Of a stretch of DNA of 20,356 nucleotides, positions 96 through 17,860 are shown piece by piece. This DNA is from a virus. Both the position numbers and the translations under genes were made by a program. The stretch spans positions 1-20,356 of IMG/VR virus record IMGVR_UViG_3300037191_001536. One strand, written 5' to 3'. The notes beneath the pieces are model-generated. The model saw only the letters and a list, made by a program, of their open reading frames with translations, was not told the origin of the DNA and made no database searches. Numbering within the stretch: the first letter of the stretch is position 1; every line of letters begins with the position of its first letter.

Positions 96-130
96 AAAAA
101 GCACTACTATAATTTACGTAGTGCTTTTTT
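96..130 (+). terminator. Intrinsic terminator, probably bidirectional
   Basis: The arms AAAAAGCACTAC (96-107) and GTAGTGCTTTTTT (118-130) form a stem with a 10-base loop. The A-run and T-run on either side let it work in both directions. On the plus strand it ends the gene that finishes at 71. On the minus strand it could stop transcripts that pass the gene at 921-1133 and run antisense through the receiver operon. Its outer arm sequence is shared with the terminator at 1206-1233. Confidence 0.85.
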
Positions 131-218: not shown

Positions 219-476
219 ATGTGGGAAATGATTGGTGTTATCGCGGCTATAACTTTTGCTTTTTTAGGCTCCCTTAAATGGGCTCTTACAACTTACACTC
301 ATTACAAAGTGACGGCAGATAGAGAAGCAATAGACATAAAAAGTTTGCAAATACGAGTTGAAGTATTAGAGTCAGATATGAAATCGTTAACACATGGAAA
401 CATATTAATGTCTGATAGTTTTCATGCAGAAATTAACAAAGTCTTACACAAAATGGCAGGAGATGGTAATGAATGA
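219..476 (+). CDS. Small membrane-anchored coiled-coil protein (spanin-like or accessory)
   Basis: This 85 aa protein has one hydrophobic segment at about residues 4-23. A charged, heptad-like helical stretch follows at about 33-80, rich in leucine, isoleucine and valine at a/d-type positions. One N-terminal membrane anchor with a coiled-coil tail is the build of an inner-membrane spanin (Rz type), and the lysis genes lie nearby on the other strand. However, it shares a promoter and an 8-base overlap with the receiver gene, so it could equally be that protein's membrane partner. The start is firm: AAGGAG at 207-212 lies 6 bases before the ATG. No lipobox protein that could serve as an outer-membrane spanin was found beside it. 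No specific family was recognised. Confidence 0.75.
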   Translation: MWEMIGVIAAITFAFLGSLKWALTTYTHYKVTADREAIDIKSLQIRVEVLESDMKSLTHGNILMSDSFHAEINKVLHKMAGDGNE

Positions 477-924
477 TATTAAAGTCATGGTTGTTGAAAA
501 TAACCAAATAGACATGAGTGTTATTACAGAAGCATTAACAGCAGCAGACATAGATTACATAGCAGTGGGCAATAGTAGAGATGCACTTTCAGTAGCTTTA
601 AAGTATAAGCCTACTATTGCTATTTTAGACACGTACATGCCAGACCTTAGTGGAGAAGAAGTAAGAAAGCAGTTACATACGCATCCTGCTACTAGTAACA
701 TAAAAGTAATATTTTTAAGCGCTGCTGAAAGTATTGACGATACACTGTTTGGGTTAAATCTTCACGTATCAGCATACTTTAAAAAAGGTGTACGAATAGG
801 TCAAATTATCAACAGTATAAATGCTATTGATGGCGCAACTAAATTACGTGGGTCAGTAAATAGTTTTGCTAGTATGTCTAAAGTACTAAATGATAAATAC
901 TCAAATATATGTGCTTTGCATTAG
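469..924 (+). CDS. Stand-alone CheY-like response-regulator receiver protein
   Basis: The 151 aa protein is a single receiver (REC) domain at about residues 3-118 with a 30-residue tail and no DNA-binding or enzymatic output domain. The phospho-acceptor is Asp54 in AILDTYMPDLSG, a textbook D-x-x-MP-x-x-x-G motif. Ser84 (IFLSA) fills the Thr/Ser switch position and Lys106 (YFKK) the conserved lysine. Two features are unusual: the acidic metal-binding pair DD is Glu10-Asn11, and the proline after the lysine is glycine. The start at 469 is chosen over 424 because AGGAG (459-463) lies just before it, the REC fold begins at its residue 3, and it leaves an 8-base overlap with the preceding gene. 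Receiver-only proteins act through partners such as a kinase, motor or adaptor. In a phage this could tap or titrate a host two-component or chemotaxis pathway. The target is unknown. Confidence 0.88.
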   Translation: MNDIKVMVVENNQIDMSVITEALTAADIDYIAVGNSRDALSVALKYKPTIAILDTYMPDLSGEEVRKQLHTHPATSNIKVIFLSAAESIDDTLFGLNLHVSAYFKKGVRIGQIINSINAIDGATKLRGSVNSFASMSKVLNDKYSNICALH

Positions 925-1133
925 TGACTAGATAATGCTTGATTACTAATCCAACCAGTAATAGCAGACTCTCTTACTAAACCTGCTTGTAACATTTCAT
1001 TAATACTTTTACAGGTTTTGTCAATTACCCACTCTCCGTTAATTTGGCAAGCTAATTTAGTCTGGTTATTAACGCGCATAAGAGCATAATTTCTTGGGTA
1101 GTTTTTTACAGGTAATTTAATAAACTTGTGCAT
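921..1133 (-). CDS. Hypothetical 70 aa protein, convergent to the receiver gene
   Basis: This 70 aa basic protein has a compact alpha/beta look: a strand-rich first half (residues 1-38, with CQINGEWV) and a helical second half ending in GWISNQ. No family was recognised and no membrane segment is seen. Its stop codon overlaps that of the receiver gene by 3 bases, tail to tail, with no terminator between them, so transcripts of either gene run antisense through the other. The ribosome site is weak (GGA 6 bases before the ATG). A candidate minus-strand promoter lies at 1176-1204. Coding status rests on the promoter, the tight convergence and the lack of any competing frame. Confidence 0.65.
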   Translation of the reverse strand: MHKFIKLPVKNYPRNYALMRVNNQTKLACQINGEWVIDKTCKSINEMLQAGLVRESAITGWISNQALSSH

Positions 1134-1175: not shown

Positions 1176-1204
1176 ATATTATGATGTGTTTAAATTATAG
1201 TCAA
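1176..1204 (-). promoter_or_regulatory. Candidate sigma-70-type promoter, minus strand
   Basis: Read on the minus strand there is a -35 TTGACT (1204-1199), a 17-base spacer and a -10 TAATAT (1181-1176). These match consensus at 5 and 4 of 6 positions. It lies just past the terminator that closes the lysis genes, where the 70 aa gene would need its own promoter. Confidence 0.5.
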
Positions 1205-1205
1205 T

Positions 1206-1233
1206 AAAAAAGCACCGTAATTGGTGCTTTTTT
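1206..1233. terminator. Bidirectional intrinsic terminator
   Basis: A perfect stem AAAAAAGCACC (1206-1216) and GGTGCTTTTTT (1223-1233) with a 6-base loop has runs of A and T on both sides. It ends the leftward lysis transcript and can also stop the rightward receiver transcript after it has crossed the antisense 70 aa gene. Its ends AAAAAGCAC/GTGCTTTTT match those of the terminator at 96-130. Confidence 0.88.
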
Positions 1234-1257
1234 ATTTATTTATCAAGTTTAAATTAC

Positions 1258-1752
1258 CTATTTTTTGCTAATCCATAAATTCTTTTGAGAACTACTTCTA
1301 GTAGTACCTACCCAGTAAGTTATTGATGCACCCCACAAAGCACTTATTTGTCCTACTAACATGTATGCCATTTCTTGATTTTCTTCTGGAAGTTTTTCAT
1401 TAAACATTGTGTAAGCCAATATTGCTACAATTACAGTTAAAGCCAATACGATAACAGCCGGCATTTTAGAATCAAAGTGATTGTCTCTAGCATTTTGTTT
1501 ATCATTTAATTCAGCTTCAAGCGTACCAAGTGCTAACCCTTGCAGTTTTTCTTTATGTTCCATTTCCCATTTTGCTAACTCAGTCCGGTTTTCTGCATTA
1601 TTAAGGGCAGAGTTAATAGCGGCAGGAGTTGGATCAACCCCTAAAACATTTGCTATAAGTGCACCTACGGTGGCCCCTGCAGGGCCACCTATTAACGTTC
1701 CTGCTAAAGGGGCAACTTTACCTACTATGTCTTTTACGCTTGCCCAGTTCAA
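1258..1752 (-). CDS. Holin, three-TM GTA-type family
   Basis: The protein is 164 aa. The N-terminal stretch (residues 1-38) is Gly/Ala-rich and hydrophobic with a GGPAG motif. A helical charged middle follows at about 50-90. Two clear membrane segments lie near 97-114 and 128-147, and the tail WVGTTRSSSQK is typical of the 'holin of 3TMs' (GTA_holin_3TM) family, which permeabilises the inner membrane at lysis. It lies directly behind the endolysin gene. The start codon is TTG at 1752-1750, embedded in the endolysin TGA stop (TTGA). An in-frame TAG lies three codons upstream, the next methionine would remove the first third, and no ribosome site is visible. Translation therefore probably depends on ribosomes leaving the endolysin gene, which would keep holin output low. 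The family call rests on pattern memory. Confidence 0.82.
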   Translation of the reverse strand: MNWASVKDIVGKVAPLAGTLIGGPAGATVGALIANVLGVDPTPAAINSALNNAENRTELAKWEMEHKEKLQGLALGTLEAELNDKQNARDNHFDSKMPAVIVLALTVIVAILAYTMFNEKLPEENQEMAYMLVGQISALWGASITYWVGTTRSSSQKNLWISKK

Positions 1753-2108
1753 TTTTGAGTACTACTACGGTAGGTGGCATCTCTTGAATCTACATGTACA
1801 AACGTGTCGTATAAAATAAATCCAAATTGTGATTTAAACTTTTCACATAAATACAGGTACATTTCGCTTGGAGCTACATCAGGAGAAGATATGTCGGCAG
1901 CTTTACCAGATAAATGGTAAGACTTTTTAGCGCCCCCCACAGCTTTATTGTGCCGTGCACAGCGGAAACCAGAAGATACGTTTATTGTTTTACCAAAATG
2001 CTCACGCACGTTAGTAAGTAATTCAAGCGTCATTGCGTCTATGGTGTCGTAGCCGCAGCCACACTTACAAGCAAACTCGCTACGTTTAAAATATTGGTTT
2101 AGTTGCAT
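1749..2108 (-). CDS. Endolysin, peptidase M15-type (D-Ala-D-Ala or L-Ala-D-Glu peptidase)
   Basis: The 119 aa protein is the single zinc-peptidase domain of the Peptidase_M15_3 type, which cuts the peptide part of peptidoglycan. The core motif SGFRCARHNKAVGG is followed by SYHLSGKAADI, with His67 and Asp74 as expected zinc ligands, and by FVHVD near residue 105 carrying the third ligand and catalytic region. The Cys-rich start CKCGCGYD (residues 14-21) is common in phage members of this family. There is no signal peptide, so it needs the holin encoded immediately downstream to reach the wall. The ATG has AGGA 6 bases upstream (minus strand). The length is normal for a single-domain phage endolysin. 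Confidence 0.92.
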   Translation of the reverse strand: MQLNQYFKRSEFACKCGCGYDTIDAMTLELLTNVREHFGKTINVSSGFRCARHNKAVGGAKKSYHLSGKAADISSPDVAPSEMYLYLCEKFKSQFGFILYDTFVHVDSRDATYRSSTQN

Positions 2109-2695: not shown

Positions 2696-5600
2696 ATGCC
2701 TATTAATCAAAACGATGATGGTTTAATAACCATAATTTCTACAGATCACGTAGTGACAATTACTGAGCCAGTAAACAAAGTTAATATTACTTCTCCTTCT
2801 CCTAATATTGTTTTAGACAGTGTAGGGCAAACTGTATCAGTTGTTACTCCCCAACCATTAGTAGTAATTGACTCTGATAAAGAAGGTCAAAATCCTTATT
2901 TTGATACTTCTCCTGCATTAACTATCATAGCTGGTATTGCAGGGTTACGTGGTTTTGTAAAAGTAGATTTATCGTGGGTAGAGTTAAACGTTACAAGCCA
3001 TCATAGTCATGTAGAAGTTTGGCGCAGTCAGATTAATAATGTAAGTTCTGCAATTTGCGTAGGCGAAAGCCGCACGCAATCTTTTACAGACCCCGTAGAC
3101 CCAGGTAAAACATATTTTTATTGGTTTAGAGGTGTTACTTATGTAGGAAATAAAACTGACTACTTTGGTAATTTTGAGGTAGCACACAGTTCTTTTACAT
3201 TAAGTGGTTCAATTACAGCTTTGTTAGCTGAAGTGTACGCTGCAATTACTCAATTAGAGCAGTTTCTTTTACAAAATACAGCTAACGCAATTGAAGATTT
3301 AGACACAAAACTTACAAACAATATTTCAAGTGAAGTGACCACTTTAACTCAACTAATACACTTAAAACATGATGAGTTAGTAGCAAGTCTTTTATTACTA
3401 GATAATTCTCTTAGAGCAAGCGACGTAATAAATTACAATAATTTGCACTCGCAAATACTAGTTGTTATATCCAGTGTTTCAACAGTAATAACTAGTGTCA
3501 ATAATCTTACAACTTCTTCTATTGATGGCGATGCTTTGCTTAGTGCACGAATAGATTTAATTAGTGCAGACTATGTAACTTTAGCTGCAGAAATTACTGC
3601 ATTAGCAATAACACTTCATGCAAAAATAGATGCAGAAACTGCTGCACGAAACGCAGATGTAGCTGCTCTTTATGCAGCACAAAGCTCAATAAGTAATGAG
3701 TTAACTGCAGCTATATTATTACTTAACGGTAATATCTCTGCTCAATTTGAAAATAGTACAGCATCAATTAATACAGTTAATGTGGCGTATGCAGATTTAA
3801 ATAGTGCGCTAGCTAGTACTACTACTACATTAACAGCGTCTATAGAGTCAGAAAGACTTAGTAGATTTGCACAAGTAGAAACTGTTAATTTAGCTTACGT
3901 CACATTAAATTCTGCATTGGCAAGTACTACAGAAACTCTTACAGCACGAGTAAACTCTGAGGCAGCTACAAGAGCAGCATCAGTATTAACAACTAATCAA
4001 GCATACGCAGATTTAAATGGGGCACTGGCATCAACTACTTTAAACTTAAATGCGTCTGTAGAAACAGCTGAATCATCTATGATAGCTCGTGTAGTTAATG
4101 AGACTCAAGCTAGAGTAGCTGAAAATCTTGTATTAGCATCAGATACGTCTCTTTTGAGTGCAAGGATGACAACTGAAACTACGCTAAGAGAAGCAGCTAT
4201 TAATACGGAAAGAGTTGCTAGAGTAACTAATGAAAGTTCTACAGCAAGTTTAGTTGAGACTATTTCAGCAGGGATATCGAACAGTGAATTAACTATTAAC
4301 TCACGAATATCTGATTCAGCAACTGCATTTGCAGACAGCACAACTGCATTGGCAAGTCGTGTTCAATTAGCAGAAGCAAGTATAGAAACTGCAGAAGGTG
4401 CTCTTATTGCACAAACTGGGTTAATACAAAATGTTACTGTTTCTCTTGAAGGTACAGCCCAAGCAGTAACGGCACTACAATCTAACATTACAACAGGTGA
4501 TGGAAGTAGTGCAACGGCTATAGCTCGTTTTACAGTAATAGAAAATAATGTTACTGGTTTGTCAGCAAGAGCTGAGTTTGGTGTAGATGTAAACGGGCAT
4601 TTTACTGGAATAGATGTTCAAAATGGTGAAACAACTATAGGAAGTATTACTTTTACTGCAGAACAGTTTTCGTTGTTTGACCCAGCATTAAATAATAACC
4701 AAGGAGGTAGTGCTTTATTTTACGTAAATGGTCAATGGGAGTTCAGAGGTAAGCTAAGACTAAGTGATGACACATTACTAAACTCAGCAGATGATCTTGT
4801 ACCTGCACCTTTTGGATTTAGTTATGACCCCAGCACAGGACAACACACAATAAGTAATGGTGTTGACGCAGATATTGTTTTATCAAACGGTACTACTCCC
4901 ACTATTACAACGTCTTTAACTGACCCAGATAATGTTGTAATTACTATTAATGGTGTAGAGCACACTTTTCCAAAAGGATACGTTCCTGTATTAGGTTTTG
5001 ACTATAATGACGGTAATACAGGTGATTATGTTAGTACTGTTTTTAAGCAAACAAATTTAACGGATAATGCACCATCTAAACCTACTGATGGTAGTTATGA
5101 TGGCACTACAGAAGTAACCCCTACTTTGCCAGATGTGTGGACTGATGACCGCATGGAAATACTAAATACTAAAGTTAGGTGGGTATCTAGTAGAAGATAC
5201 ACTCAGGAGTTAACATACACAGATGGCGTAGCAAATTTACCTACTTGGTCAGCTGTAGGTGATTGGTCTTCTCCTGTTAAAGACGCTTTACCTGGTCCTC
5301 AAGGAGCTTCAGCATTTCAAATTTGGTCTGCAGCCAATAATGGCCAAGATATATCTGTATTTCTTGATTCACTAAATGCAGAAGATGGTATTGATGGTAA
5401 TACTTGGTATTCAGAAACAGGTAATTCTGCAACTTGGGCTATAGGTATTGTTGGTGATTTCATATTATCAGATGGAAGTAACATATATAAGAAAACTGTA
5501 TCAGTTTATTTTCCTACTGATTCTGTAAATCATGAATGGGTATTTGTTAAAAACTTGATTGGGCCATCTGCAAAATCTTTAGTTTTATCTTCTAGTGCAG

Positions 5601-8509
5601 GTGCGTTTTCGTATAAAGCTGATGGCACACTTATTAGTCCGACTTCTATTATTTTTTCTGCACAGTCTTCAGGACTAATTGGTAACACAACATGGAAAAA
5701 AGACGGAATTACTCTAGATGGGGTAGTAGGTCTTTCTTACACGTTAACATCTGCAACATTTAATTCTGCGGATAGCACAGTAATATCTGTTGAACAAGAA
5801 AACCTTTCAGATGCAACGACCATACATAAATTACAAGACGGACTTGAAGGTAGCTCACCTTTTCAGATTATTTTAAGTAACAGTGTGCATTCAATACCCA
5901 CTCTTCAAGACGGCACCGATGGTGTGTACACAGGCTCAGAAACAACTGTAAAAGTTTTTGAGGGCACAACTCTATTAAATTATGACACTAGTGGAGAAAA
6001 GGGTACATGGACTGCAAGTTTATTAAATTCAGGTACTGCAGGAGCAAGTTCTTTAACATTTCATGCTGATACACCAATAGCCCCAGATATTACAAATTTA
6101 GTAGGTAACTCAGGTATACGTATTATTACCGTAACTGGTATTGCACTAGATGGAACAACACCTATAAATCTTAGTGCAGTTCAATCTTTTAGTAAAAACA
6201 AACAAGGAATATCAGGTAATTCTATAACTGTTCAATATTCGGCTGATGATGCTACGGATTATGATGCTGATTGGCATACCGAATTTACTCCTGCAACAGA
6301 TAAGTACATGAGACAAAGAGTAGGTACAGAGTCGTGGAGTACTGCTATTCAAATAGTAGGTGAAGGTGGAAATACAGGAAACTATACAGACTACCAATTT
6401 GCTCTTTCTGCGCTAAGACCTACTACTACACCTACTTCAGCAAGTACTGAATGGACAGATAGCCCTAGTGATAGCTCGCTAACACAGTTTGTGTGGATGA
6501 TTAAAGCTCAAAAAAATCATAAAGGTGAAGTTCAAGGTTCCTGGTCTGTACCAATTAGGTTAACAGGAGAAAGAGGTGAGCCTGGAGTATCTCCAGATCC
6601 TATTACACCAGAGCCTGGTGACGTCGGCCCAGGAGGTGCAGGCTGGTTTGTTACAATATCTGATGCAACTGCTAATGAACGACTACTAGTTTTAGGAGAC
6701 ATAGCTGATAATGGCGGTAACCCTGTAAGATGGAATGGGGAAGAATGGGTAGAACAAATAGCGTTTATTTCAGGTTCGTTATTAGTAGACGGAGCAATTA
6801 CTGCACGTACTGTTTCTGCTGGAACAATAGGTGCAGCAGAAATAAATGTAGATAATCTTTTTGCTGAGGAAATAGACGTAACAGGTAGTTTAACTGTAGG
6901 TAATTCTAGCGGAGTGCACGCTCGTCTTACAGCAGGTAATAACAATCAGCCGTTATTTCGAGCCCAAGGTGTTAACGCTTCAGGTACTAATGTACCTCTT
7001 TTTGAAGTTAAACCTAATGGGCAAGGAGTAGTTAATGGTAATTGGCTTACATCAAACAGTTTACTAGGCAAAGCAATATCTCAAAATGCTATAGACTTTA
7101 TTAGAAGCCAGTTAGGTTTAGACAATAACGTATCTGAAACATATGGAGGTAAACGTGATAGATCTTTTAACTTATCTACTGCAGGTACTTTTTCATTAGA
7201 CTCATTTAATCATGGCTCTAATGACGTTACAGTCGCTATTAGTTTATCAGGGCAAGCTGATTTTGCCTTAGACGACAACATACCTACTGTTAGAATCAAA
7301 ATATCTAACGGGGTAAACGAGATATACAATCAATTGCATACAGGTAGTAATACCATAATTGCACTTGGACGTTACGGTGAGCCGCCAGAATATCGTCAAG
7401 ACATTGAAGCAGAAATTTTATTTACTGATTCAAGCTTAGAACCAGGTGAGCGAATTTATAGCGTAACGTTTAGTCCACTAACTTTTATGCAAGAGTTAGT
7501 AACAACAGTTGATTTTTCTATAGCAGAAGTAGTAACTCATTCAGGTGGAAGCGGAAGTGGATCTAGTTATGTTTTGCCTACAGCGTCCGCAGATGTAATT
7601 GGAGGAGTAAAAGTAGGCAGTGGATTAGTTATATCAGAAGGTGTTTTATCGAGTAATGGTATTGTTTCTGGAGAAACACAAAGTATCGAGGGCAGCATTG
7701 TACAAAGAGATATAGACAGAGACATATCAGCAAGGCTTTTTAGGTCAGAATTTACTGTAACTAACCCAGTTATTAATTACATTGTTACTCAGCAATTAAT
7801 AGGCACCTCTAATAACTATATGCGTCCTTCAACGCCTGCGCAATTTAGACAACAAGTTACTGACAATTATTACCCTAAGTTATTAAATACTAATTCCTGG
7901 GAAGGAGTTAATACGTTTACTAAATCAAGTTATTTTAAAGACGCGTATATAGGTAATGGGACAAGTGGTAATTTTTACTCAGACGTACCAGGAAGAACAG
8001 CTTTTACAGGTGGGCACTTTTATATACAAAGTGGGTGCACTAACTATTACAATTACGCTGCAAATCAATATCACGGAAACACATATGGAACTAATCATTA
8101 TTTTAGAGGTAATTATTTAAGTGGGAATAAATGGTCTATAAGTAACAGTGGTTTATTTTCAGGAACAGATGCTACAGCTACATCAGATATACGTTATAAA
8201 GTTAATTTAGCCCCCATAAATAAAGCTTTAGACAAAGTTTGTCAATTAAGTGGAAAAACATATGACCATTTAGAAAAACAAGGAGAAAGGTCAGTAGGGC
8301 ATATAGCGCAAGAAGTAGAAGTTGTACTACCAGAAGCTATATACGAAGTACCAGATAAAAGATTAGGCTTAAAAAAAGTTATTAGTTTAAGTGCAATACC
8401 TGCTTTACACACAGAAGCAATAAAAGAATTAAAGCGTGAGAACGATAGTTTAAAAGAAAGGTTATCTAGGATAGAAGCTACTTTGACTCATTTAACGGAT
8501 AAAAAGTAA
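2696..8509 (+). CDS. Giant tail fibre with FnIII, coiled-coil, collagen-like and S74 chaperone domains
   Basis: The 1937 aa protein is the main host-recognition fibre. The domain order is: a beta-rich docking region (1-70); one fibronectin type III domain (about 73-170); a long helical rod (170-590) with three 36-residue repeats at 364-471; a DUF1983/gpJ-like central segment (560-680); a string of beta domains with DGxxG turns (700-1290); a short collagen-like stretch GERGEPG with GDVGPGGAG (about 1290-1320); a fold-back segment SAGTIGAAEINVDNL (about 1375); a Gly/Ser hinge with LPTASADVIGGVKVG (about 1620-1645); and a C-terminal S74 endosialidase-type chaperone (about 1825-1937). The S74 active-site motif SDIRYK gives Ser1830 and Lys1835, with cleavage expected just before Ser1830 after trimerisation. 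A closing coiled coil ends the protein. The ribosome site is weak (AAGAG). The gene overlaps the next one as TAATG. Confidence 0.9.
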   Translation: MPINQNDDGLITIISTDHVVTITEPVNKVNITSPSPNIVLDSVGQTVSVVTPQPLVVIDSDKEGQNPYFDTSPALTIIAGIAGLRGFVKVDLSWVELNVTSHHSHVEVWRSQINNVSSAICVGESRTQSFTDPVDPGKTYFYWFRGVTYVGNKTDYFGNFEVAHSSFTLSGSITALLAEVYAAITQLEQFLLQNTANAIEDLDTKLTNNISSEVTTLTQLIHLKHDELVASLLLLDNSLRASDVINYNNLHSQILVVISSVSTVITSVNNLTTSSIDGDALLSARIDLISADYVTLAAEITALAITLHAKIDAETAARNADVAALYAAQSSISNELTAAILLLNGNISAQFENSTASINTVNVAYADLNSALASTTTTLTASIESERLSRFAQVETVNLAYVTLNSALASTTETLTARVNSEAATRAASVLTTNQAYADLNGALASTTLNLNASVETAESSMIARVVNETQARVAENLVLASDTSLLSARMTTETTLREAAINTERVARVTNESSTASLVETISAGISNSELTINSRISDSATAFADSTTALASRVQLAEASIETAEGALIAQTGLIQNVTVSLEGTAQAVTALQSNITTGDGSSATAIARFTVIENNVTGLSARAEFGVDVNGHFTGIDVQNGETTIGSITFTAEQFSLFDPALNNNQGGSALFYVNGQWEFRGKLRLSDDTLLNSADDLVPAPFGFSYDPSTGQHTISNGVDADIVLSNGTTPTITTSLTDPDNVVITINGVEHTFPKGYVPVLGFDYNDGNTGDYVSTVFKQTNLTDNAPSKPTDGSYDGTTEVTPTLPDVWTDDRMEILNTKVRWVSSRRYTQELTYTDGVANLPTWSAVGDWSSPVKDALPGPQGASAFQIWSAANNGQDISVFLDSLNAEDGIDGNTWYSETGNSATWAIGIVGDFILSDGSNIYKKTVSVYFPTDSVNHEWVFVKNLIGPSAKSLVLSSSAGAFSYKADGTLISPTSIIFSAQSSGLIGNTTWKKDGITLDGVVGLSYTLTSATFNSADSTVISVEQENLSDATTIHKLQDGLEGSSPFQIILSNSVHSIPTLQDGTDGVYTGSETTVKVFEGTTLLNYDTSGEKGTWTASLLNSGTAGASSLTFHADTPIAPDITNLVGNSGIRIITVTGIALDGTTPINLSAVQSFSKNKQGISGNSITVQYSADDATDYDADWHTEFTPATDKYMRQRVGTESWSTAIQIVGEGGNTGNYTDYQFALSALRPTTTPTSASTEWTDSPSDSSLTQFVWMIKAQKNHKGEVQGSWSVPIRLTGERGEPGVSPDPITPEPGDVGPGGAGWFVTISDATANERLLVLGDIADNGGNPVRWNGEEWVEQIAFISGSLLVDGAITARTVSAGTIGAAEINVDNLFAEEIDVTGSLTVGNSSGVHARLTAGNNNQPLFRAQGVNASGTNVPLFEVKPNGQGVVNGNWLTSNSLLGKAISQNAIDFIRSQLGLDNNVSETYGGKRDRSFNLSTAGTFSLDSFNHGSNDVTVAISLSGQADFALDDNIPTVRIKISNGVNEIYNQLHTGSNTIIALGRYGEPPEYRQDIEAEILFTDSSLEPGERIYSVTFSPLTFMQELVTTVDFSIAEVVTHSGGSGSGSSYVLPTASADVIGGVKVGSGLVISEGVLSSNGIVSGETQSIEGSIVQRDIDRDISARLFRSEFTVTNPVINYIVTQQLIGTSNNYMRPSTPAQFRQQVTDNYYPKLLNTNSWEGVNTFTKSSYFKDAYIGNGTSGNFYSDVPGRTAFTGGHFYIQSGCTNYYNYAANQYHGNTYGTNHYFRGNYLSGNKWSISNSGLFSGTDATATSDIRYKVNLAPINKALDKVCQLSGKTYDHLEKQGERSVGHIAQEVEVVLPEAIYEVPDKRLGLKKVISLSAIPALHTEAIKELKRENDSLKERLSRIEATLTHLTDKK
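3785..4108 (+). repeat. Three 108-base (36-residue) tandem repeats in the fibre rod
   Basis: The units start at 3785, 3893 and 4001 and encode residues 364-399, 400-435 and 436-471 of the fibre. Each begins AYxxLNxALASTTxxL and continues with a helical, Ala/Thr/Glu-rich stretch. Weaker copies seem to flank them. They probably set the length of a trimeric helical rod. Confidence 0.75.
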
Positions 8510-10752: not shown

Positions 10753-12864
10753 ATGAATGAATACACAAAGCCTACCTTAAAAGAACCCACTAAGTTGACT
10801 AAGTGGAAAAAAGAGCCAAAGCTCAGTCAACTTAAGCAGGATTATGCTGATGCAAAAATTGAAACGGATAAGCATGTTAGCGATGTAGATCGCTGGCTTG
10901 ATAATCTGCATATCAAAGGAAGTGCGAGAATTGCAAAAAGCAAAACACGCTCTAGTATTCAGCCAAAACTTATAAGGAAACAGGCTGAGTGGCGTTATTC
11001 ATCCCTGTCAGAACCCTTCCTATCTACGGCTGACGTTTTTAACGTCAGCCCCGTCACCTTTGAAGATAAAAAAGCTGCAGAACAAAACCAACTAATTTTA
11101 AATCATCAGTTTAATAACAAACTGGATAAAGTGCATTTTATCGATGAGTACGTAAGAACTGCTGTAGATGAAGGCACAGTAATTGTTCGTACTGGTTGGG
11201 ATTATGAAGAAGAAGTAATAGAAAAAGAACTACCAGTGTACTCTCAAAGAGTAAATCCTGATCCTGCTTATGCACAGCAATTGGCTCAAGCCGGTCAAAT
11301 GTACCAGCAAAACCCAGAAGAGTTTGCACAACAAGCTACTGAAGAACTAAAAATGTCTTTACAAGCTTCTATGGAAACACAGCAACCTATTGAAGTATTT
11401 CAGTCTGGTACAGAAATAGTAGAAGAAACAGTAGTTACACGTAACCAACCTACTGCAGAAGTGTGTGATTACCGAGATGTAGTTTTAGACCCTACTTGTA
11501 AAGGTGTGTTAAAAAAAGCTAAGTTTGGTATATATCGCTTTACTACTTCATTAGAGGAGTTAGAGGCAGCAGGTTTTTACAAAAATTTAGATGAAATAGT
11601 TACTAACACTAATTCTATATTAGGTGAGCCAGATTACGATACTCCTGATAACGACACATTTAATTTTAAAGATGAGCCACGCAAAAAATTTATGGCTTAT
11701 GAGTATTGGGGTTTTTGTGACTACGAAGAAAACGGTAAGTTACAAGGCTTTGTTGCAACTTGGGTTGGTAACACGTTAATACGTTTAGATAGTAATCCTT
11801 TTCCAGACCAAGAACTTCCTTTTGTAGCTATTTCTACATTACCTGTACGTAAGTCTTTATACGGTGAACCAGATGGTGAATTAATTAAAGATAACCAAGA
11901 CGTTGTAGGGGCAGTTACAAGGGGCATGATTGATATTATGGCCAGTAATGCTAGTGGGCAAAAAGGTCGTCGTAAAGATGCTTTAGATATTACTAACCAA
12001 CGTAGATATGATAAGGGTGACGATTATGAGTTTAATGTTCATGTTGACCCACGTCAGGCGTTTTACACGCATGTTCCTGCAGAGATTCCTAACTCATCTC
12101 AGTTTATGTATCAAATACAAAATATGGAAGCTGAGGCTCTCACAGGAGTTAAAGCATTCTCTGATGGCATCAACGGTACTTCTTTCGGGGATACTGCTAC
12201 AGGTGTTAATGGCGTATTGGCTGCTTCTAGTAAACGCGAATCAGGTATCTTACGTCGTTTAGCAGACGGTATTGTGCAAGTAGCTAATAAGTTTATTTCT
12301 ATGAACAGTGAGTTTCTTGCTGATGAAGAAATAGTGCGTATTACAAATGATGAGTTTATTGCTATAGATCGTGAAGCATTAGCAGGGCATTTTGATCTTA
12401 AACTCTCTATTTCTACAGCAGAAGAAGATAACCAAAAAGCGCAAGAATTGGCTTTTATGCTACAAACTACTGGCCCATCTTCTGACCCAGGTGAAGTAAG
12501 AATGATACGTGCAGAAATAGCACGACTTCGTAGAATGCCAGACTTAGCTAAAAAAATTGAAGATTACGAGCCACAGCCAGATCCAATAGAGCAAATGAAA
12601 GGTCAGTTAGAAATTGAGTTACTTAAAGCTCAAATAGCTGAAGTACAGGCAGAAGCTGCACAGCGGCAAGCCACTGCACAACTAAATATGAGCAAGTCTG
12701 CAGAAGTAGATTCACAAACTGATCTTAATAATCTTGACTTTGTTGAGCAAGAGTCAGGTGTTAAGCAAGAACGTAATCTACAAAAACAAGGTGAACAAGC
12801 TAAAGCTAATGCCAAATTAGAAATGGTTAAGTCAGCTTTAGCATCAGATAACCCTACTAAATAG
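10753..12864 (+). CDS. Portal protein
   Basis: The 703 aa protein would form the dodecameric ring at one capsid vertex through which DNA is packaged and ejected. Size and position directly upstream of a small protein, scaffold and capsid fit portals of the N4 gp59/P22-like size class. Residues 1-110 are helical and basic with RKQAEWRYSSLSEPF. Near 240 lies CDYRDVVLDPTC, a pattern common in these portals. The core continues with GAVTRGMIDIMASNASGQ and the region FGDTATGVNGVLAASSKRE (about 475). The last 100 residues are a Gln/Ala-rich coiled coil, like the barrel helix of large portals. No clear Shine-Dalgarno sequence precedes the ATG: the 20 bases before it are A/T-rich. This is odd for an essential gene and fits the leader hairpin having a role. 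A strong terminator follows. Confidence 0.85.
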   Translation: MNEYTKPTLKEPTKLTKWKKEPKLSQLKQDYADAKIETDKHVSDVDRWLDNLHIKGSARIAKSKTRSSIQPKLIRKQAEWRYSSLSEPFLSTADVFNVSPVTFEDKKAAEQNQLILNHQFNNKLDKVHFIDEYVRTAVDEGTVIVRTGWDYEEEVIEKELPVYSQRVNPDPAYAQQLAQAGQMYQQNPEEFAQQATEELKMSLQASMETQQPIEVFQSGTEIVEETVVTRNQPTAEVCDYRDVVLDPTCKGVLKKAKFGIYRFTTSLEELEAAGFYKNLDEIVTNTNSILGEPDYDTPDNDTFNFKDEPRKKFMAYEYWGFCDYEENGKLQGFVATWVGNTLIRLDSNPFPDQELPFVAISTLPVRKSLYGEPDGELIKDNQDVVGAVTRGMIDIMASNASGQKGRRKDALDITNQRRYDKGDDYEFNVHVDPRQAFYTHVPAEIPNSSQFMYQIQNMEAEALTGVKAFSDGINGTSFGDTATGVNGVLAASSKRESGILRRLADGIVQVANKFISMNSEFLADEEIVRITNDEFIAIDREALAGHFDLKLSISTAEEDNQKAQELAFMLQTTGPSSDPGEVRMIRAEIARLRRMPDLAKKIEDYEPQPDPIEQMKGQLEIELLKAQIAEVQAEAAQRQATAQLNMSKSAEVDSQTDLNNLDFVEQESGVKQERNLQKQGEQAKANAKLEMVKSALASDNPTK

Positions 12865-14422: not shown

Positions 14423-15595
14423 ATGTCAGCATTAAAACAGCAGTATAATGAACCCGTAGGCGGAACAGCCTCTAGTGTAGGTGCTCAGTTACGTACAGAT
14501 CACTATTCCAAAAAAGCACTAATTGAAGCAGTAAAAGAAGAGTATTTTGGGCAGTTGGCTTCTAGCCGTAACATGCCTAAAAATATGGGTAAAACACTTA
14601 AGTTGTACCATTACTTACCTTTACTAGATGTACGCAACGTTAACGACCAAGGTCTTGATGCAGCAGGAGCAACAATTACTAACGGTAACTTGTATGGCTC
14701 ATCTAAAGACGTAGGTACTATTGGTGGTAAGATTCCATTGCTATCAGAAAACGGTGGGCGTGTTAACCGTGTTGGCTTTAAGCGTTTAGTGCTTGAAGGT
14801 ACAATTGAAAAAATGGGTTTCTTTGACGAGTACACACAAGAGTCTTTAGACTTTGACTCTGATGAAGATTTAATGATGCACGTTAATCGTGAAATGGTTG
14901 TTGGTGCAGATCAACTGACTGAAGCTATGCTTCAAGCTGATTTGCTTACTGCCGCTGGTACTATTAAGTACGCTGGAAATGCAACAACAAAACTTACTGT
15001 TGGTCCTGATGACTTAGTTACTTATGATGACCTAGTTAAACTTGGTATAGACCTTGACAACAATCGTACTCCTAAGCAAACCAAAGTAATTACAGGTACT
15101 CGTATTATCGATACCAAAGTTATTTCTGGAGGACGACCTATGTATTGTGCGTCAGAGTTGCTTCCAACTTTGATGGCAATGGTAGATTACCACGGAAATC
15201 CTGCATTTATTGAGGTAAAACACTACGCAGCTAATGGTAGTACTTTACGTGGTGAAGTCGGTTCTATTGCTGGTTTCCGCATTATTAATCCGTTGGAAAT
15301 GCAACGTTATGAAGGTGCAGGCGCTACAGGTGATGCAACTAGTTATGAGACTGGTGGCAGCGTTGATGTGTTTCCAATGCTTGTTGTTGGTGATGAATCT
15401 TTTGCCACTATTGGTTTTCAAACTGACGGAAAGTCCGTTAAGTTTAAAGTCACACACAAAAAACCTGGCGTTGAAACTGCGGATCGTACTGACCCGTATG
15501 GCGAAACTGGTTTTATGTCAATTAAATGGTACTACGGCTTCTTGCCACTACGTTCTGAACGTATTGCAACATTGTTAACAGCTGCTAAAGCTTAG
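14423..15595 (+). CDS. Major capsid protein, N4-gp56 family
   Basis: The 390 aa protein has the pattern of the N4-gp56 major capsid family, an HK97-fold shell protein. The N-terminal arm has [20 protein letters not shown] and [18 protein letters not shown] loop follows with [16 protein letters not shown], then [20 protein letters not shown] and [15 protein letters not shown]. The C-terminal P-domain part has [15 protein letters not shown] and [15 protein letters not shown]. The length is normal for the family and no cleaved prodomain is obvious. It lies between the scaffold and the neck-type gene. AGGT (14411-14414) lies 8 bases before the ATG. Its own strong terminator follows, as expected for the most abundant virion protein. 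Confidence 0.92.
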
Positions 15596-16192: not shown

Positions 16193-17860
16193 ATGAGTTT
16201 TGAGTTGCTTACTGAAGGTACTATAGAGGGTAACGGTGTATTTGATCGTTTAATGGCAGTTACTAAAGCACACTTAGATACTGAGTACTCTAAAAATAGG
16301 ATGTCTGGTGAAGAGTATGCAAAAGCGTACACAAGTATTACAACTACGGTACTACAGCAAGCAATTCAATATTCTTTAACTGAAGCTCAATCTGTAGCAC
16401 AAGTAACTTTAACAAACGCACAGACTGATAAAATTCTTATAGATAAAGAAATAGCTGTTGTACAAAAAGCTAACTTAACTTTAGAAGGGGAAAATATACT
16501 TAAACAAGGTCTTCGTTTAGATAAAGATTTAGAGTTAATAGACCTACAAAAAACTAAATTAACTGCTGACACAAATATGACTACCCAGCAAATTGCTAAC
16601 TCAGTTATAGAAGGTAGTAACCTTACTAAACAGGGTGATACTTTAGTTAAGTCTATAGAGATGGTTAATGCGCAAATAACTAAATTAGGTGTGGATTCTG
16701 ATGCAGTTACTGCACAGTCAGCTAATACTGTGTTAGAGGGATTTAACATTGTTAAGCAAGGTACTAGTTTAGACAAGTCAATAGATATGGTTAATGCACA
16801 ACTAACTAAATTAGCTGCTGATACTAGTATGGTTACTCAACAAGAAGCAAATGCTTTATTGGAAGGAGGAAACATTACTAAACAGGGTAATGCTATAAAT
16901 AAAAACATTGAATTAAGCTCTGAACAAATAACAAAGCTATCTGCAGATACTTCAATGGTTGTTCAACAAGAAGCGAATGCTTTAATTGAAAATGCAAACC
17001 TTACTAAACAAGGTAATATTTTAGTTAGTGAAGTTAGCTTTATTGCAGCAAAAATAACTAAATTAGGTAAAGATAATGAACTTATAGAGCAACAAAAATC
17101 CAATCTTTCTGCAGAAGCCACTGCAATACCTGGGCAGATTATTAACACGGCTGCAAAAACAACTAGTATTGGCGTACAGGATTTACAAACTACTGCGCAA
17201 ACAAATTTAATTAGTCAACAAAAGCAAAACTTGGCTGAAGAATTATTTAACGTAAGTAAGCAAGCTGCTGTGCTAGATGAACAAGTGTTTAAGATACAAG
17301 CTGAGACAACTAACATTGGTACTCAAACGTTAAACACATCAGGTCAAACAGCACTTTTAACTCAGCAAAGACTTAACGTAATTGCTGAAGGACTACTTAT
17401 ACCTAAGCAAGGACCTATATTAGATGAACAGCTTGCAAAACTTCAAGAAGATATAGCGGAATCTGTAGTTGCTCAATCTAAAATTTCTGCTGAAAAGTTA
17501 TTGATAGACGCTCAAGCTGCAAAAGTGTCTGAAGATATTTTACAAGTTACTGCTTCTATTGCTAAAACAGGAAAAGAAATTGATGTACTTAGCCAGCGTC
17601 AGAAAACTGAAGTAGCTCAAATTAGTGACGCAGTTAATGGAGCAGAAGTAGCGGGTGTAGTAGGTAAACAAAAAGAATTATATTCTGCACAGGTTGACGG
17701 CTATGCAAGAGATGCAGAACAAAAAGTGTTAAAGACATTGGCTGATGTATGGGCTGTACAACGAACTACTGATAGTGGTCTGCAACCAGGTGGAGCAGGA
17801 TTATCTGATTCTGCAATAGCATCAGTAGTTGCTAAAGCTAGAGCAGGAATTGGTAGTTAA
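16193..17860 (+). CDS. Virion rod-like protein with 42-residue coiled-coil repeats
   Basis: The 555 aa protein has a conserved-looking head (1-60: EGNGVFDRLMAVTKAHLD, then GEEYAKAYTSI). The long helical body contains six 42-residue repeats (97-348), a 49-residue unit (349-397) and less regular helices to about 500. Each repeat reads roughly (L/I)EGxNxxKQG..., (A/S)xQxTKL, xxD, QQxAN. All unit lengths are multiples of seven, which points to a continuous coiled coil. The end is Gly/Ala-rich (LQPGGAGLSDSAIASVVAK). I recall long Gln-rich helical virion proteins with this head following the capsid region of other phages, where they are called structural proteins. A tail-tube, neck or ejection role is not established. 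GAGAGG (16182-16187) lies 5 bases before the ATG. Confidence 0.8.
   Translation: MSFELLTEGTIEGNGVFDRLMAVTKAHLDTEYSKNRMSGEEYAKAYTSITTTVLQQAIQYSLTEAQSVAQVTLTNAQTDKILIDKEIAVVQKANLTLEGENILKQGLRLDKDLELIDLQKTKLTADTNMTTQQIANSVIEGSNLTKQGDTLVKSIEMVNAQITKLGVDSDAVTAQSANTVLEGFNIVKQGTSLDKSIDMVNAQLTKLAADTSMVTQQEANALLEGGNITKQGNAINKNIELSSEQITKLSADTSMVVQQEANALIENANLTKQGNILVSEVSFIAAKITKLGKDNELIEQQKSNLSAEATAIPGQIINTAAKTTSIGVQDLQTTAQTNLISQQKQNLAEELFNVSKQAAVLDEQVFKIQAETTNIGTQTLNTSGQTALLTQQRLNVIAEGLLIPKQGPILDEQLAKLQEDIAESVVAQSKISAEKLLIDAQAAKVSEDILQVTASIAKTGKEIDVLSQRQKTEVAQISDAVNGAEVAGVVGKQKELYSAQVDGYARDAEQKVLKTLADVWAVQRTTDSGLQPGGAGLSDSAIASVVAKARAGIGS
16481..17383 (+). repeat. Tandem 126-base (42-residue) repeats
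   Basis: Units start at 16481, 16607, 16733, 16859, 16985 and 17111 (126 bases each), with a seventh, 147-base unit at 17237-17383. All stay in frame. The third and fourth are the most alike at DNA level, for instance around ACTCAACAAGAAGCAAATGC and its counterpart 126 bases later. Later units diverge. This suggests growth by unequal duplication in the past with selection to keep the heptad phase. Confidence 0.85.

Follow-up and report, generated by a model that had tools for sequence, protein, structure and literature searches.

The window analyzed here is the whole 20,356-nt stretch of DNA that makes up one virus fragment (IMGVR_UViG_3300037191_001536), and the virus from which it came is referred to as the window phage. 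Close to the left end of the window, the gene for a small one-pass membrane protein (the partner) is followed on the same strand by the gene for a single-domain response regulator (the receiver). On the opposite strand, genes for a membrane protein and an M15 endolysin run toward the pair. The features of the window are listed in Table 1.

Table 1. Features of the window and the basis for their assignment
Feature	Coordinates	Strand	Basis and remarks
Terminator-like hairpin, GCACTAC...GTAGTGC then T run	101..130	+	Read in sequence; closes a gene truncated at the left edge
Partner, 85-aa one-pass membrane protein	219..476	+	ORF; 8-nt overlap with receiver start
Shine-Dalgarno-like AGGAG	458..462	+	Read in sequence; 6 nt upstream of receiver ATG, within the end of the partner gene
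Receiver gene, 151 aa	469..924	+	Pfam, phrog, AlphaFold2, Foldseek, active-site table
70-aa ORF, doubtful gene	921..1133	-	ORF only; between receiver and lysis genes
Symmetric strong hairpin, A-run 5', T-run 3'	1203..1236	.	Pattern scan, 15 pairs
164-aa membrane protein, putative holin	1258..1752	-	phrog_1544, 3e-33; overlaps endolysin end
M15 peptidase endolysin	1749..2108	-	PF08291, 2.2e-26; phrog_894 endolysin, 1.4e-38
1937-aa tail protein	2696-8509		C-terminal part (about residues 1740-1930) like tail-fibre proteins of many phages
Portal, SU10-type	10753..12864	+	PF23899, 4.3e-141; 54.7% to Salmonella phage FSL SP-076
Major head protein, N4 gp56 type	14423..15595	+	phrog_1357, 3.3e-127; 62.7% to Pseudomonas phage phCDa
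555-aa virion protein	16193-17860		phrog_2050; repeats of type ANxLxEGxNxxKQG

The hairpin at 101–130 is absent from the list returned by the pattern scan, probably owing to the length of its loop, and the hairpin at 1203–1236 is a probable bidirectional terminator. No significant match to the 70-aa reading frame was obtained in Pfam or phrog searches. The 164-aa membrane protein is a putative holin by virtue of its position, and in other phages its phrog_1544 relatives are neighbors of genes for an amidase or a lysozyme. Together with the endolysin, the portal, and the major head protein, it bears out the virion and lysis context that had been described from the sequence alone. The similarities of the portal and the major head protein place the window phage among the N4-like Schitoviridae. 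Relative to the Alteromonas schitovirus A5, the values are 44% for the portal and 55–62%, by segment, for the head protein. The host would be Alteromonas or a neighbor, as judged from the gene pair that these phages have in common. Much of the 1937-aa tail protein outside its C-terminal part is without a close match in the same comparison, and no tRNA or Rfam family was found in the window.

The receiver is the only one in the 20,356-base record. The in-frame reading frame spans positions 424–924, with the ATG at 469 and the stop at 924. Residues 6–117 match the Response_reg profile (PF00072) with an E-value of 3.8e-14 and a score of 53.2 bits against a cutoff of 30.2 bits, for which the chance expectation is negligible. 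Profile positions 1–110 of 111 are covered, and the match therefore extends over the whole domain. A match to phrog_731 (5.8e-16) was also obtained. The AlphaFold2 model, calculated with a 52-sequence alignment, is a (beta-alpha)5 fold of five strands and five helices with a mean pLDDT of 93.8 and a pTM of 0.85, and helix 5 is extended to 41 residues (residues 110–150). The Foldseek list for this model is dominated by receivers, including 8fk2, RR468, and DivK. The VIA-align comparisons gave a Z of 19.2 and an rmsd of 1.5 for DivK, and Z values of about 18 for RR468 and Spo0F. Among viral models, ORF30 of phage V22 is the second structural match. The protein is thus a member of the Response_reg family by profile and by fold, in agreement with the CheY-type receiver proposed in the sequence-only reading. 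That reading had also reported the output domain to be missing, and none was found in the reading frame with Pfam or AlphaFold2; the C-terminus is predicted as a single long helix. The GC3 of the gene is similar to that of other genes of the window phage. The receiver is a real, conserved feature that is ordinary in fold and unusual in placement.

Membership in the better known receiver families was examined with NCBIfam profiles. The best profile is PhoB (TIGR02154), a receiver plus a winged-helix domain, which matches residues 5–120 only; the scores of 47 bits for the window receiver and 76.8 bits for the receiver of phage H4/4 fall below the cutoff of 296 bits. Membership of the window receiver in the PhoB family is ruled out by the missing output domain. 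The RssB profile (NF007969) scored 30.7 bits against a cutoff of 329 bits, and the CheY and Spo0F profiles are absent from the best 25 NCBIfam matches. The earlier suggestion that the protein mimics a chemotaxis or stress adaptor is not supported by these PhoB and RssB matches, which are low and confined to the generic receiver part. The fold is held in common with CheY, DivK, Spo0F, and RR468, from which the window receiver differs by an Asn at DD2, a 41-residue helix 5, its phage origin, and a membrane partner.

All of the active-site residues named in the sequence-only reading are present. Asp54, Ser84, and Lys106 are retained, the acidic pair is Glu10-Asn11, and Lys106 is followed by Gly107. 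Position 11 (DD2) is Asp in 45 of 45 bacterial receivers and in all 12 of the other phage receivers, and the residue after the Lys is Pro in 42 of the 45 bacterial receivers, a set that was picked by canonical motifs and thus leans toward canonical sites. DD2 contacts the metal directly, and a receiver without any one of the five catalytic residues is a pseudo-receiver (PMC12632262); lack of a catalytic residue, here DD2, is the usual defect of such proteins (PMC12632262, PMC4395418). Because of the Asn at DD2, the window receiver is a pseudo-receiver by the published definition. For the same reason, the description of the receiver as complete holds for the fold and fails for the catalytic site (DD, D, T/S, K), whose second acidic residue is Asn11. 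The phosphorylation site is probably altered at this position, as had been suspected, and the window receiver, with Asn11 and Gly107, probably works independently of phosphorylation. The loss of one of the five catalytic residues is shared with the pseudo-receivers and aspartate-less receivers described previously (PMC12632262, PMC4395418). The first of these papers covers bacterial proteins, and the word "phage" appears nowhere in its text. All five catalytic residues are intact in most of the phage relatives. The receiver of phage V19 lacks Asp54, Ser84, and Lys106 and resembles the aspartate-less receivers in that the Asp itself is missing; its role must therefore be phosphorylation-independent.

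The hydrophobic segment of the partner covers residues 5–23 (KD19 mean of 1.83), and positive charge is located C-terminal to it. A cytosolic C-terminus is suggested for the partner in the window phage. Helices appear at residues 2–29, 34–55, and 66–80 in a low-confidence AlphaFold2 model, and no significant family match was obtained with the Pfam, phrog, or NCBIfam profiles. The arrangement of the two genes recurs in 13 distinct loci, which form seven locus groups from several unrelated phage lineages. In 13 of 13, the receiver starts between −11 and +4 nt from the stop of an upstream gene on the same strand, and this gene encodes a protein of 85–125 aa with a single hydrophobic segment, the rest being polar and helix-like. 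The 8-nt overlap in the window lies within the spacing of about 11 nt by which we propose to define the Alteromonas-phage lysis-cassette receiver pair. In phage PB15 (KX982260.1, L012:5989-6010), the annotated response-regulator start is 21 nt late; starting from the upstream ATG yields MKKRVFVMDDSELY, matching XX1924, and restores a 4-nt ATGA overlap with the preceding gene. The hydrophobic segment lies at the N-terminus except in PB15 and XX1924, where it is C-terminal; in the groups of V22 and A5 it is weak. The flanking charges show a modest bias toward placing the polar, helical part in the cytosol, and this part is suggested to lie on the same side of the membrane as the receiver.

The partner of PB15 matches phrog_937 "hemolysin" (1.8e-16), which is read as an XhlA-like type. 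Cross-group comparison of the shallow partner profiles with hhalign gave E-values of 0.42 and 0.06, and no homology between groups was detected; the partner is thus conserved in architecture and position only. When partner and receiver were modeled in AlphaFold2 as a fusion, with the frame step set by hand, confidence was low in the partner half and no usable interface resulted. Lysis cassettes often include small membrane proteins. The receiver-less phages P24 (L102:1634-1873, minus strand) and AD45-P1 (L014:18765-19097, minus strand) have a small coil-like protein with one hydrophobic segment, which in P24 adjoins a phrog_1544-like membrane gene and a lysozyme gene. Because of these similar proteins in phages that have no receiver, the receiver seems to have been added to a small membrane/coil protein of this kind.

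A tblastn search of 50,697 phage records identified the Foturvirus phages H4/4 and R8W (30–32%) and the phages R9Y1-3 (31–33%) as nearest, with 31.7% over 139 residues for H4/4. Later queries added V19, PB15, XX1924, V22, and A5, and the IMG/VR collection added L006, L008, L009, L116, and L117. Alteromonas is the host of every annotated isolate phage in which a receiver has this pair arrangement. Phage receivers had been called rare, which holds in general and does not hold among Alteromonas phages, where the gene is recurrent. Its distribution in these phages is also incomplete: the survey of related phages that had been recommended found the pair in the 13 loci and no receiver in the Alteromonas phages AD45-P1, P24, ZP6, and R7M. 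No close relative of the window receiver was found in IMG/VR, where the V19-type and PB15-type queries also gave none, and no phage DNA near-identical to the window was found. Receiver-matching "phage" records from Listeria, Staphylococcus, and faecal "Bacteriophage sp.", which are unannotated and often short, were taken as probable bacterial DNA and left out. The Stenotrophomonas phage Bhz63 has a PhoP-like gene (720 bp) beside a PRK11100-type gene and was set aside as a different arrangement.

In close, unsaturated pairs of relatives, dN/dS is 0.06–0.20 for the receiver and 0.05–0.28 for the partner. These values indicate purifying selection on both genes in those relatives; no close relative of the window copy was found. 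The receiver has a significant profile match and is present and under selection in relatives, whereas the lack of a match, or absence or decay in all close relatives, would have spoken against the original assignment. In the receiver tree, whose deep branches are weakly supported, a single origin of the phage receivers is compatible with the data and appears in 10% of bootstrap trees; the window receiver is on a long branch. Recent capture from a host was considered and rejected: among 395 genomes from the order of Enterovibrio, which may not include Alteromonas, no match scored above 94.5 bits with the R9Y2 receiver, whereas the receiver of H4/4 and that of an R9Y-type phage match each other at 152 bits. 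Most of what a search of bacterial-genome contigs yielded was generic regulators, many with several domains; the exception was one phage contig in a Marinimicrobia assembly. This contig (PBFM01000045.1, L016) is binned as Candidatus Neomarinimicrobiota, and its length of 42,718 nt and its R9Y-type receiver are both as in an IMG/VR phage contig; it is probably a misbinned phage contig.

Lysis genes are found beside the pair in the other groups as well. The lysozyme gene of R9Y2 overlaps the end of the receiver gene by 4 nt. In PB15, an M15 peptidase gene overlaps it by 4 nt and is followed by GTA_holin_3TM (3.1e-16). By reading, a PB15-like holin is the next gene but one after the receiver in XX1924. 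The XX1924 gene directly 3' of the receiver (L101:2438-2836) occupies the position of the PB15 M15 peptidase; it was not accepted as such a peptidase, since its translated sequence looks different. An Rz-like spanin overlaps the end of the receiver in V22 and A5 (7e-6 and 2.9e-8, respectively), and in A5 an endolysin follows two genes later. In V19, genes for a membrane protein and a phrog_1501 protein face the pair in convergent orientation. In both the window phage and V19 the pair runs toward the endolysin and putative holin and is not co-transcribed with them. The probability that six named lineages are near lysis genes by chance is about 1e-6, a rough estimate that takes 8 of about 50–150 genes per phage as "near" and ignores shared module ancestry, although A5 and V22 have a common module.

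Several of these receivers have been annotated previously. V22 ORF30 and A5 gp11 were published as CheY auxiliary metabolic genes, without a link to lysis (PMC7289586, PMC10579305). Like the window receiver, they are receiver-only proteins of about 150 aa encoded directly after a small protein whose hydrophobic segment is N-terminal; unlike it, they have an intact catalytic site, a gap of 1–2 nt in place of the overlap, and the Rz spanin directly downstream. For R8W g48, the published reading is PhoB, with a tie to low phosphate (PMC8228385), although the protein is without a DNA-binding domain. R8W g48 and H4/4 gp44 have the same coupling and C-terminal DKY segment as the window receiver, and differ from it in a complete active site and a Lys-Pro. 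Two genes upstream of these receivers is a class II holin, and on the other side a two-pass membrane gene is followed by terminase genes. No paper joining these receivers, or any phage-encoded receiver, to lysis was found in the open-access literature.

The interpretation builds on what is observed, namely, the receiver fold, the partner overlap, the recurrent holin, endolysin, and spanin neighbors in unrelated Alteromonas phages, and the substituted metal-binding residue. We infer that the conserved pair in Alteromonas phages probably helps to set the time of bursting and is not stray host metabolism. Of the roles suggested earlier, a link to lysis timing is favored, since the coupling to a small membrane protein of the lysis cassette recurs in seven locus groups. 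The model preferred here, to which we give somewhat less than an even chance, is that a single-domain phage receiver regulates lysis with its membrane partner, gated by phosphorylation in most relatives and independent of phosphorylation in the window phage and V19. Translational coupling would supply the two proteins in a fixed ratio. The receiver would remain in the cytosol and dock on the cytosolic helical tail of the partner, through either the alpha4-beta5-alpha5 face or the long helix 5, and docking would control when the partner or the neighboring holin is triggered. Where the DD/D/S/K site is complete, as in most relatives, acetyl phosphate or a histidine kinase of the host could gate this step, so that the timing of lysis would be tied to the state of the host. 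For the window phage and V19, the receiver would serve as a docking domain that is either fixed or controlled by the partner, and would be comparable in function to T4 RIII, a cytosolic antiholin. To our knowledge, no receiver fold has been reported for T4 RIII or ICP1 ArrA, and their likeness to the window receiver is one of functional analogy only. Both antiholins are phage-encoded regulators of lysis timing, and RIII, which acts from the cytoplasm, is a precedent for a cytosolic phage protein that controls lysis (PMC8385771, PMC7182436). The model is weakened by the lack of a usable predicted interface, the absence of detectable homology between partner groups, the convergent orientation of the pair and the lysis genes in the window phage and V19, and the short C-terminal extension of the receiver in PB15 and XX1924.

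The five catalytic residues kept in most relatives, and the CheY and PhoB auxiliary-gene annotations of V22, A5, and R8W (PMC8228385, PMC7289586, PMC10579305), would also fit a decoy or adaptor mimic that accepts phosphoryl groups from a histidine kinase of the host, or competes for this kinase, and so alters stress, phosphate, or motility responses. This reading is rather unlikely, and it leaves unexplained why the receiver is consistently coupled to a lysis-cassette membrane gene. The phosphate sink proposed in the sequence-only reading is impossible in V19 because Asp54 and Lys106 are missing, and unlikely in the window phage because the metal ligand is missing. A PhoB-like DNA-binding protein that switches on phosphate-starvation genes of the host or phage is scarcely credible: the best NCBIfam profile and the label given by the R8W authors point that way, and against them stand the distance from the PhoB cutoff, the missing DNA-binding domain, and the 41-residue helix that follows the receiver.

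Decay must also be weighed, since the substituted DD2, Gly107, and the long branch, with the further erosion in V19, are what would be expected of cargo captured with a neighboring module and now functionless in the window phage. We regard this as unlikely in view of the intact reading frame with its good ribosome-binding site, the confidently predicted fold, the overlap kept with the partner, and the phage-like GC3, and of the purifying selection measured in relatives. Finally, the receiver gene of A5 and V22 travels beside a tail-fibre/chaperone module that is swapped between unrelated phages (PMC10579305), which raises a role in anti-defence, superinfection, or host recognition with incidental lysis neighbors. 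That role is highly improbable, given that an Rz-like spanin overlaps the receiver in these same phages and that the other groups have lysis neighbors in common and not the fibre module.

A broader form of the lysis-regulator model is more speculative, and we hold it to be doubtful. Alteromonas phages would have repeatedly wired lysis to host two-component signaling: a receiver made together with a one-pass membrane lysis protein would read the host phosphorylation state and set the time of lysis; the window phage and V19 would have converted it to a phosphorylation-independent regulator.

The main interest of the locus is the recurrent pairing within a lysis cassette, more than the mere presence of a receiver in a phage. 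Superinfection is known to influence lysis timing (T4 RI/RIII and ICP1 ArrA), and, judging by the open-access literature, a link through a phage-encoded receiver would be new. The change from complete to aspartate-less receivers at one gene position offers a natural series on how phosphorylation is lost while function is kept. If the coupling is functional, the published PhoB and CheY auxiliary metabolic genes would shift to the lysis module, and the pair would allow direct study, by mutation, of how a marine phage senses host physiology before it bursts an abundant copiotroph.
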